Part shown: positions 23,444 through 26,130 of the stretch, one piece after another
How positions within the stretch are numbered: the stretch's first letter is position 1
Layout: every line of letters starts with the position of its first letter
DNA from: an uncultured Lachnospiraceae bacterium
GTDB lineage: Bacteria; Bacillota; Clostridia; Lachnospirales; Lachnospiraceae
Direction: 5' to 3'
DNA length: 33,167 bases
Assembly (NCBI GenBank): GCA_947624815.1
Contig: CANQME010000029.1
Coordinates: 1-33,167, forward strand
Translations under genes and position numbers: made by a program
The notes under the pieces: generated by a model
What the model was told of the DNA's origin: nothing
The model's database searches: none
The model's input: the letters and a program-made list of their open reading frames with translations, nothing else

Positions 23444-24561
23444 GGGCGATCGGTATTGTACTGGCAGGCGGCAACAACAAGCGGATGCGGGAACTGTCCA
23501 ACAAGCGGGCCATCGCGGCGATGCCCATTGCCGGCAGCTACCGGAGCGTGGATTTCGTCTTAAGCAACATGACCAATTCCCACATTTCCAAGGTGGCGGT
23601 GTTTACGCAGTTTAATTCCCGTTCGCTGAACGAGCACCTGAATTCTTCCAAATGGTGGGACTTCGGGCGCAAGCAGGGCGGACTGTACCTGTTCACCCCG
23701 ACCATTACCACGGAGCACAACGACTGGTACCGGGGAACGGCGGACGCGCTTTACCAGAACCTGGATTTTCTGAAGAGCAGCCATGAGCCCTATGTGGTCA
23801 TGGCGGCGGGCGACGGGATCTACAAGCTGGATTACAATAAAGTCCTGGAGTACCATGTAGAGAAGAAGGCGGACATTACCATCGTCTGCAAGACGATGCC
23901 GGCCGGCGAGGATGTGACCCGGTTCGGCGTGGTGAAGGTGGCGGACGACGGACGGATCCTGGATTTCCAGGAGAAGCCCATGGTCGCCGACTCCAACACC
24001 GTTTCCTGCGGTATCTACGTGATCCGGCGGCGTCAGCTGATCGAGCTGATCGAGCGGGCCGCCCAGGAAGACCGTTTTGATTTTGTCAAGGATATCCTGG
24101 TCCGCTATAAGAACATGAAGCGGATCTATGCCTATGAGCTGGATACCTACTGGAGCAATATCGCATCCGTTGAGTCCTATTACAGGACCAATATGGATTT
24201 CCTGAAGCCGGAAGTGAGAAACTACTTCTTCCGGGAATATCCGGAGATCTACTCCAAGGTTGGAGACATGCCTCCCGCCAAGTATAATCCCGGCGCGGTG
24301 GTGAAGAACAGCCTGGTATCCAGCGGCAGCATTATCAATGGCGTTGTGGAGAACTCCATTCTGTTCCGGCAGGCGTACATCGGTAATAACTGCGTGATTA
24401 AGAATTCCATCATTCTCAATGATGTATATATTGACGACAATTCGGTTATTGAGAACTGTATCGTAGAAAGCCGTGATACGATACGGGCCAACACGACGTA
24501 TATCGGTTCGCCCGGCGACGTGAAGATCGTCGTCGAGCAGAACGCCAGGTATTCCCTGTAG
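23440..24561 (+). CDS. glgD: GlgD subunit of glucose-1-phosphate adenylyltransferase
   Basis: 373 residues, starting four bases before the glgC stop. Same overall fold as GlgC, but the nucleotide loop is [11 protein letters not shown] instead of GGxGxRL, so the ATP site is degenerate. [18 protein letters not shown] follows in the usual place. The C-terminal beta-helix has [18 protein letters not shown] repeats. In Bacillus and clostridia GlgD lacks strong activity itself and stimulates GlgC in a mixed tetramer. No glgA, glgB or glgP is next to the pair, so the rest of the glycogen pathway lies elsewhere. Confidence 0.95.
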
Positions 24562-24653
24562 GTTGATGGAAGGGGGCGTACGCCTTGCTTCGCCCTACCC
24601 GTGCCGTACTATGCGCAGGCGGGAATTCAGATGAAGACAGAGAGGAGTACAGT

Positions 24654-24941
24654 ATGCAGATCACAGACGTAAGGGTCAGGAAAATCGACAAAGAAGGTAA
24701 GATGAAAGCGATCGTTTCCATAACCCTTGATAACGAGTTTGTCATTCACGACATCAAAGTTATCGAAGGGGAACGCGGACTCTTCATCGCGATGCCCAGC
24801 CGCAAGACGGCCGAGGGCGAATATCGCGACATCGCTCATCCGATCAATTCCGAGACCAGGGATATGATTCAGCGTGTGATTCTGGATAGGTATGAGACTA
24901 CAGAGGCAGGCAGCGACGGTATATTCGGAAGCACAGAGTAA
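24654..24941 (+). CDS. spoVG: Septation regulator SpoVG
   Basis: 95 residues from the ATG at 24654 with AGAGGAG at 24641-24647. The start [20 protein letters not shown] and the blocks [17 protein letters not shown]-like (residues about 21-37) and [20 protein letters not shown] (45-65) are nearly invariant in SpoVG. It is a small DNA/RNA-binding regulator that in Bacillus affects septation and sporulation and in other Firmicutes virulence and metabolism. The RNA described at 24999-25174 lies downstream; no terminator separates the spoVG stop from it. Confidence 0.97.
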
Positions 24942-24998
24942 TGACGGCCGGGCGTAGGCGGTTCGGACGTCTGCTACGCAGGAAGCGCAGCGAGATTC

Positions 24999-25174
24999 GC
25001 GTTTCCCGCTATAGGTAAGAAGCGAGAAAATAGCGGAAACATAAGCGGCGGCAAGCCGCATAGGCATCCATAGAAGAGGCAGAATGAAACCAAGACGGCC
25101 ACGAACCTGGGAGACGGCTTTCACCAGGGGAGTGGCCGGCAGGAAAGAAATCAGCGGGAAACGCTTATTTTTTT
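24999..25174 (+). ncRNA. Candidate structured RNA or leader with alternative stems (unidentified)
   Basis: GCGTTTCCCGCT (24999-25010) is the exact reverse complement of AGCGGGAAACGC (25153-25164), which is followed by TTATTTTTTT. The same 5' strand can instead pair locally: GTTT and CCGCTAT with ATAGCGGAAAC (25030-25040), 11 pairs with one bulged C. Between the arms lie GCGGC-ggcaa-GCCGC (25045-25059) and a stem with an internal loop, GGCCAC/GTGGCC (25097-25102, 25132-25137) over CCTGG/CCAGG (25106-25110, 25124-25128), with GAA facing GGA. The single-stranded parts are purine-rich. It could be a free RNA (raiA motif and 6S are candidates by size only) or a regulatory leader of the etf operon. 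I could not assign an Rfam family. Confidence 0.55.
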
Positions 25175-25224
25175 AGACCTGGAGCGAAACTTTATTTCAT
25201 TTCAATGCAAAAAGGAGGGAACTA

Positions 25225-26130
25225 ATGAAAATTCTGGCGTGTGTGAAGCAGGTGCCGGGAACCAACCGGGTGGAGATCGACCCGGTTACCGGCGTGCTTA
25301 AGCGTGACGGGGTCAGCAGCAAGCTGAATCCCTACGACCTCTACAGCCTGGAGACCGGATTTCAGCTGGCGGAGCAGTACGGAGGCGAGGTGTACACGCT
25401 GACCATGGGACCGGATCAGGCGAAGACGGCGATCCGGGAGACCCTGGCGATGGGCGCGTCCGGAGGCACGGTGATCAGCGACCGGCGGTTCGCCGGCGCG
25501 GATGTGCTGGCCACCAGCTATACGCTGGCCCAGGGCGTGAAAAGAGCGGGGGAGTTTGACCTGATCCTCTGCGGCAAGCAGACCACTGACGGCGATACGG
25601 CGCAGGTAGGGCCGGAGCTGGCGGAGCATCTGGGGATCCCGCATGTGACGAACGTGCTGGAGGTGCGGCCTGCAAAACGGGAGGAAGACGGCGATATGCA
25701 GCAGAAAGAGCAGGACGCGCGCGTAAGCGGAACGGAGGGAGCGTCCGGTGCAGACGAAAAAGGGCCGGACGGCGCCGGGAATGGGCCGGGAGCCGGCCGC
25801 AGACTGTGGGTCCGGGCCCTGCGCGACGGCCTGATCGTGGAGCAGCTGGTCACGACGCCGTGTCTTCTGTGTATGGAGGACGGCGTGAATACGCCGCGGC
25901 TGCCGTCGTTTCGCCGTCAGAAGGCGATCACGGAGGAGCAGATCGGCGTTATGAATCTCGACGACATGGAAGACAGGAACGAGAAGGCATACGGCCTGTC
26001 CGGCTCCCCGACCCAGGTCGTGCGGATGTTTCCCCCGCAGAAGAGGGACGGCAAGGAGCTTTGGAACGGTACGGAGGAGGAGTCGGCGGAGCGCATCTTT
26101 GAGCTGCTTCGTGAACGGAAGATGATATAG
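25225..26130 (+). CDS. etfB: Electron transfer flavoprotein beta subunit
   Basis: 301 residues; AAAGGAGGG before the ATG. EtfB/FixA features: MKILACVKQVPGTNRVEID start, LNPYDLYSLETGFQLAE, TMGPDQAKTAIRETLAMGA, and the nucleotide-binding LCGKQTTDGDTAQVGPELAEHLG. In bifurcating Etf proteins this subunit holds the second FAD that splits electrons. Unlike ordinary EtfB (about 260 residues), there is a low-complexity insert of about 43 residues (about 150-192), rich in Gly, Glu and Asp, in a loop before RRLWVRALRDG. The order etfB-etfA-lctD is that of the lactate operon lctBCD in acetogens. First gene of this operon; the structured RNA precedes it. Confidence 0.94.
   Translation: MKILACVKQVPGTNRVEIDPVTGVLKRDGVSSKLNPYDLYSLETGFQLAEQYGGEVYTLTMGPDQAKTAIRETLAMGASGGTVISDRRFAGADVLATSYTLAQGVKRAGEFDLILCGKQTTDGDTAQVGPELAEHLGIPHVTNVLEVRPAKREEDGDMQQKEQDARVSGTEGASGADEKGPDGAGNGPGAGRRLWVRALRDGLIVEQLVTTPCLLCMEDGVNTPRLPSFRRQKAITEEQIGVMNLDDMEDRNEKAYGLSGSPTQVVRMFPPQKRDGKELWNGTEEESAERIFELLRERKMI

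Follow-up and report, generated by a model that had tools for sequence, protein, structure and literature searches.

The region behind spoVG in the window (the whole 33,167-nt stretch of DNA analysed here) is best explained as a composite, in which a stem-loop specific to the clade, placed in the 3′ region of spoVG and protecting the mRNA end or limiting read-through, lies beside the by-product of a repeat copy; we give this explanation slightly better than an even chance. Its conserved core, an AUAG motif followed by a stem-loop, sits in the intergenic region 3′ of spoVG in 12 of 26 genomes of the genus (the window, G011, G012 and G015 to G023). A first-pass annotation had proposed a switch-like RNA in front of an etf/lactate operon; our comparison lends no support to a ligand, to the lactate link or to the 24999-25164 switch.

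The conserved core and its covariation

In the window, spoVG (24654..24941, 95 aa plus stop) is followed by etfB (25225..26130) as the next gene; both were read from their translations, carry the names of the first-pass annotation and lie on the plus strand, as do the other window features described below. The core opens with the conserved upstream motif AUCCAUAGAAGAGGCAG (25066..25082), whose AUAG is the same in every one of the 12 sequences of alignment A2, and continues with the stem-loop CGGCCAC-GAA-CCUGG-loop-CCAGG-GGA-GUGGCCG (25096..25138). Its near-invariant apical loop GACGGCUUUC (25113..25122) reads CGGCUUUC in 11 of the 12 genomes and CGGCUUAC in the other one, and is partly paired within itself in the predicted fold. 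Two further stems and an internal loop with opposed G-A pairs had been described between the arms of the supposed switch, and both stems (25045-25059 and 25096-25138) and the GAA/GGA loop do appear in the predicted fold, but the internal loop is not universal, being absent in G019 and G020, where the stem reads as uninterrupted. The smaller stem is the hairpin GCGGC-GGCAA-GCCGC (25045..25059), and its GCGGC/GCCGC arms also occur in G017, G019, G020, G021 and G023, with loops that differ by eye.

Alignment A2 contains the 12 members, all from one genus, fitted to a covariance model. The stem pairs in 91.0% of 189 cells of this alignment, compared with 85.1% after shuffling (0 of 500 as high) and 38.7-52.7% when the partner was slid; 6 of its 16 pairs carry changes in both partners, a count reached in 2 of 500 shuffles, and its covariation score reaches 0.283, against 0.159 in shuffles (0 of 500 as high) and at most 0.083 with the partner slid. 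The number of further pair types in the stem, 13, was not above the shuffles (12.7, with 294 of 500 as high). Alignment folding kept double changes in 7 of 18 pairs, with a small RNAalifold covariation term of -0.54. The five upper-stem pairs, for which the arms were chosen by hand, form in all 12 genomes, with an exchange of CG to UA at one position and of GC to AU in G017, and irregularities occur in the lower stem of G011, G016, G018 and G022. The core stem thus appears to be supported by covariation that is good but not formal proof, given the relatedness of the genomes and an alignment fitted to the model; as only one genus is represented, the covariation counts are not independent events.

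A small protein gene is not supported, as no conserved frame spans the loop: the 11 members inspected (all except G012) have reading frames and starts that vary from one to another, with no frame common to them across the loop, and neither G015 nor G023 has an open reading frame with a start codon across it.

Distribution and gene neighbours

A DNA search of the 26 genus genomes returned homologous sequence at E <1e-8 in G012, G014, G015, G017, G018, G021, G022 and G023, most other matches being short and weak. The covariance model R1, which represents the central part of the region, was searched in the same genomes and yielded the 12 accepted occurrences; in G012 spoVG is represented by a fragment at the contig end that covers SpoVG residues 70-95 (26 residues), and in G023 an insertion places the element 184 nt behind spoVG. 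Matches of R1 that lay away from a found spoVG, with E 0.006-0.07 (in G007, G013, G014, G025 and a second one in G021), were dropped. A spoVG match was present in 22 genomes, comprising the 12 with the element, one whose contig ends before it (G014) and nine with other sequence (G001, G003 to G009 and G024), the SpoVG of these nine being close (88-91% identity). By eye, six of the nine element-less loci carry a hairpin of the GGCGGC type whose short loop varies, G008 is similar, and G006 and G007 have other sequence; these varying loops contrast naturally with the near-invariant one of the core.

The gene downstream is etfB in 4 of the 12 members (the window, G012, G017 and G021) and pth in 7 (G011, G015, G016, G018, G019, G022 and G023), with G020 showing neither within the 700 nt examined and the pth of the window genome lying on a different contig, C50. 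Given these mixed downstream genes, the element is associated with spoVG rather than with the etf/lactate genes, and the redox or lactate-related signal previously suggested for the etf operon finds no footing, since the conserved part follows spoVG. The motif starts about 10 bases past the spoVG stop codon in G015 and G012 and is therefore probably inside the spoVG transcript. In G011, G016 and G018 the pth start lies 36-45 nt beyond the stem, a gap that is close for a separate promoter and leader, so that pth probably shares a transcript with the element there.

A second conserved hairpin-like element, AGCGTTAGY...YTARCGCTTT, was observed once per genome in 10 of the 26 genus genomes (control 0), namely G000 (C50:14698-14746), G010, G012, G013, G014, G015, G017, G019, G020 and G023. 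It is located upstream of pth in the four genomes checked (G000, G015, G019 and G023), its inner sequence varies between genomes, and its loci in G015 (L041) and G019 (L049) had no Rfam match at E<=1.

When R1 was run on 9 genus loci together with 80 spoVG loci taken from named records, it gave 25 matches at E up to 10, of which five were strong (L079, L080, L082, L084 and L085) and the others had E of at least 0.08, one of them (L110, E 0.83) lying close behind spoVG. The loop word occurred within 260 nt after spoVG in 5 of the 80 named-record loci, the same five as the strong matches; all five are uncultured Lachnospiraceae assemblies, and four are G015, G017, G018 and G023, hence not new members. 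The isolate names of the five carriers begin with 'Lapin', which suggests the rabbit gut. Among 397 family genomes, R1, run with stricter filters on a sample including only two genomes of the window's own genus, matched seven outside the genus (E 2e-5 to 0.008), and the model R2 matched three weakly, one at the same place as an R1 match. The seven non-genus R1 matches were rejected as members, since spoVG, etfB and pth are absent from all of their 3-kb loci and two look by eye like terminators behind other genes; no convincing member in other genera was found among these family genomes with either model.

The proposed alternative pairings and the terminator

The segment 24990-25175 has an exceptionally stable predicted fold of -67.5 kcal/mol, shuffled sequences averaging -46.8 (sd 3.84; z -5.39; 0 of 200 as good), in line with a structured RNA at the locus. 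The 12-base complementarity on which the switch proposal was built is real: the 5′ arm GCGUUUCCCGCU (24999..25010; GCGTTTCCCGCT as DNA) is the exact reverse complement of the distal arm at 25153..25164 (AGCGGGAAACGC), and the spacing was likewise correct, the U-tract ending at 25174, 50 bases upstream of the etfB ATG at 25225. When the 283-nt intergenic region was dinucleotide-shuffled 3000 times, a perfect 12-nt complementary pair was obtained 4 times, and the whole window contains four 12-nt complementary pairs at most 180 nt apart, whereas 100 first-order Markov sequences averaged 0.25 such pairs, with no more than 2 in any of them; in view of these chance counts and of the four such pairs in the window, the 12-nt pair alone is modest evidence. 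The near alternative arm AUAGCGGAAAC (25030..25040; ATAGCGGAAAC) does form 11 pairs with 25001-25012, but one C must be bulged from the 5′ strand, a detail omitted in the first-pass annotation. In the window's own sequence, the distal pairing exceeds the near one (mean pairing probability of the 12 arm bases 0.67 vs 0.29).

Most of the 5′ arm, 10 of its 12 bases, belongs to a copy of a genus repeat (24974..25008; pattern GGAAACGCGAANNNCGCNNCGC). With at most one mismatch, this pattern has 39 matches in 15 of the 26 genus genomes, four of them at spoVG, compared with 2 for the reversed control; the window's own genome contains no second match. The repeat CGGGAAACGCGAACTCCGCTTCGCTCCGTTTGCGTAGCGCCGGA (24974-25008) was also seen as a 44-bp tandem array in G019 (contig C38). 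At the spoVG locus the 5′ arm is found, identical in all five, in the window, G014, G017, G021 and G023, and by eye it is missing in the other members, G012 with its neighbouring etfB among them. The near hairpin is available in five genomes and hardly varies. The distal arm is altered in G017 and G021, where the helix is partly broken with no compensating change, and G023 has no matching arm at a U-tract. The 5′ arm had a mean pairing with the final 45 nt of 0.67 in the window, 0.00 in G017, 0.16 in G021 and 0.01 in G023, so that the distal pairing dominates only in the window among the four genomes folded, and in these few genomes the two mutually exclusive pairings find no support as a switch. 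The comparison of homologous gaps, which had been proposed as a check, gave a divided answer: the inner stem-loop covaries in 12 genomes, but the 24999/25153 pairing is not conserved. From the sequences compared, the helix 24999-25010 x 25153-25164 may be read as a window-specific by-product of a repeat copy placed between spoVG and the element.

Folds of the 45-nt 3′ ends predict a local hairpin before the U-tract in the window, G017, G021 and G015, with the stem AGCG/CGCU in the window and AUGCG/CGCAU in the other three; G015 has this hairpin though its 5′ arm is absent, and in G012 the arm before the U-tract pairs further upstream instead. In the window, the hairpin and its U-tract (25145..25174; AAGAAAU-C-AGCG-GGAAA-CGCU-U-AUUUUUUU), which contain the distal arm, form a probable terminator. 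This hairpin has only 4 core pairs; a simple terminator scan needing 5 pairs did not list 25145-25174 and returned no plus-strand terminator in 24560-25260. The same interval held no sigma-70-like promoter, for which the chance expectation was only 0.6, and read-through control of the window's etf genes is possible. An inverted repeat, GAAACTTTATTTC (25186..25198), lies between the U-tract and the etfB ribosome-binding site in all four etfB loci compared, and might be an operator of the etf/lactate operon.

The core stem-loop itself is closely followed by U6-7 in G019, G020 and G022 and by only U4 in G011 and G018, and no U-tract directly follows it in the window, G012, G015, G016, G017 and G021; G023 has a UAUUUUAUUU stretch a few bases past the stem. 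Behind spoVG in G022 (L062), the core stem was seen to be followed by TTTTTTATCCCATAGGGGATCGCGTCCTGTGGGATAAAAAA, a long inverted repeat resembling a bidirectional terminator.

Mechanism, competing explanations and known systems

We propose that the AUAG motif and the stem-loop, just past the spoVG stop codon, would be the functional heart of the element, which would form the 3′ end of the spoVG mRNA or sit between spoVG and its downstream neighbour. The core stem-loop would most likely block 3′ exonucleases and lower read-through into downstream genes, and it could itself terminate transcription where a U-tract follows directly; given the missing or short U-tracts, a terminator role of the core does not fit all members. 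A plain barrier or terminator does not need a near-invariant loop and motif, and a partner that binds them, either a protein or a second RNA, is likely. In the window, the separate local hairpin with its U-tract (25145-25174) could end the transcript before etfB. Against this composite reading count the irregular lower stem in four genomes, the thermodynamics of the window, which favour the long-range helix, the lack of a second repeat match in its own genome, and the scan of 24560-25260, which returned neither a plus-strand terminator nor a promoter.

A true attenuator or riboswitch of the etf/lactate operon, in which a metabolite would decide whether the 24999 strand pairs with 25030-25040 or with 25153-25164 and hence the fate of the U-tract stem, could account for the availability of both pairings, the preference for the distal one in the window (0.67 vs 0.29), the U-tract adjoining the distal arm and the lack of a sigma-70-like promoter in 24560-25260, by which read-through may feed etf. 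We nevertheless consider it quite improbable, given a 5′ arm that is mostly repeat and was not seen in G012 with the same etfB neighbour, a distal pairing that falls to 0.00 in G017 and 0.16 in G021 with uncompensated changes of the distal arm, and the lack of a match to any Rfam family. A repeat copy beside a terminator arm can mimic a switch, which calls for caution when switches are called from a single sequence. The raiA motif is laid out as a compact RNA with a long-range closing helix next to its terminator, a layout that the window region resembles. A free non-coding RNA of this style, about 175 nt long, with the 24999/25153 helix as its closing stem and its 3′ end at the U-tract, had been offered by the first-pass annotation as well, and would agree with the compact minimum-energy structure (z -5.4) and the position of the closing helix beside the U-tract. 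The closing helix, however, is dominant in none of the three relatives folded, no promoter-like site lies in 24560-25260 (chance alone 0.6), and the raiA model has no match in the 26 genus genomes, which is a weak absence since its 14 control genomes were silent too; such an RNA is about equally hard to credit.

RNAs that are recognised by a partner typically carry a near-invariant loop on a covarying stem. It is conceivable, though we rather doubt it, that the element acts as a SpoVG-responsive or sRNA-type 3′UTR, with SpoVG binding the near-invariant loop or a cut-off 3′UTR acting on other mRNAs. In favour of this are the position of the element behind spoVG in 12 of 12 accepted occurrences and the reports that SpoVG binds RNA in Listeria (PMC4959528) and, according to a review, targets its own DNA and mRNA in Borrelia (PMC12472547). 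On the other side, the protein-RNA link is here drawn by analogy, from position and from other species, nine same-genus genomes have a close SpoVG (88-91% identity) without the element, and the review reports no identified consensus binding motif for SpoVG (PMC12472547). By that analogy, the CGGCUUUC loop and the AUAG motif could only tentatively be regarded as recognised by SpoVG in 3′UTR autoregulation or as released in a regulatory RNA, in either case clade-specific. If the loop served for recognition, SpoVG would find in it an obvious candidate RNA target, SpoVG being an RNA-binding regulator without a known consensus site according to the review (PMC12472547).

The comparison with known RNA families gave no assignment. 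The whole window had no Rfam match at gathering score, ten matches in 24900-25300 at E up to 10 were all unrelated families far below their gathering scores, and the loci of six relatives had none at E<=1; the raiA motif (RF03072), named in the first-pass annotation as a candidate, matched neither in the window at gathering score nor in 24900-25300 at E up to 10. The best of the ten by bits, a Sulfolobus sRNA, was rejected (23.7 bits at E 0.02, the gathering score being 44), ARAGORN detected no tRNA or tmRNA in the window, and a pseudoknot between a GAAGAG motif and a CUUUC loop, as well as resemblance to PyrR sites or to SAM or lysine riboswitches, found no support by eye. Among the papers listed on SpoVG, raiA, Lachnospiraceae repeats and candidate structured RNAs, no title or abstract opening contained a description of the element.

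The composite of a conserved core and a repeat by-product shares features with several known systems. It resembles a riboswitch or attenuator in having one strand with two partners, one of them beside a U-tract, but differs in that the alternative pairing is not conserved, the shared strand is mostly repeat and the downstream gene is not fixed. With an intrinsic (Rho-independent) terminator it shares U6-7 closely after the core in G019, G020 and G022 and the predicted local hairpin with U-tract at 25145-25174 in the window; unlike such a terminator, the core lacks an adjacent U-tract in the window, G012, G015, G016, G017 and G021, and its loop is conserved. In Ruminiclostridium cellulolyticum, stem-loops between genes are reported to lower downstream transcription and to affect the stability of the upstream transcript, and clostridial internal terminators to determine how abundant upstream mRNA is relative to downstream mRNA (PMC9045158). 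Like those intercistronic stem-loops, the element is GC-rich, directly follows a gene and has no or a poor U-tract in several members, and its position would fit the setting of an mRNA ratio. That system was described in ABC-importer operons, with an abstract that mentions no conserved loop, whereas here the loop and the upstream motif are near-invariant in 12 genomes and tied to spoVG. The element is a new, narrowly distributed representative of known structured 3′-region elements.
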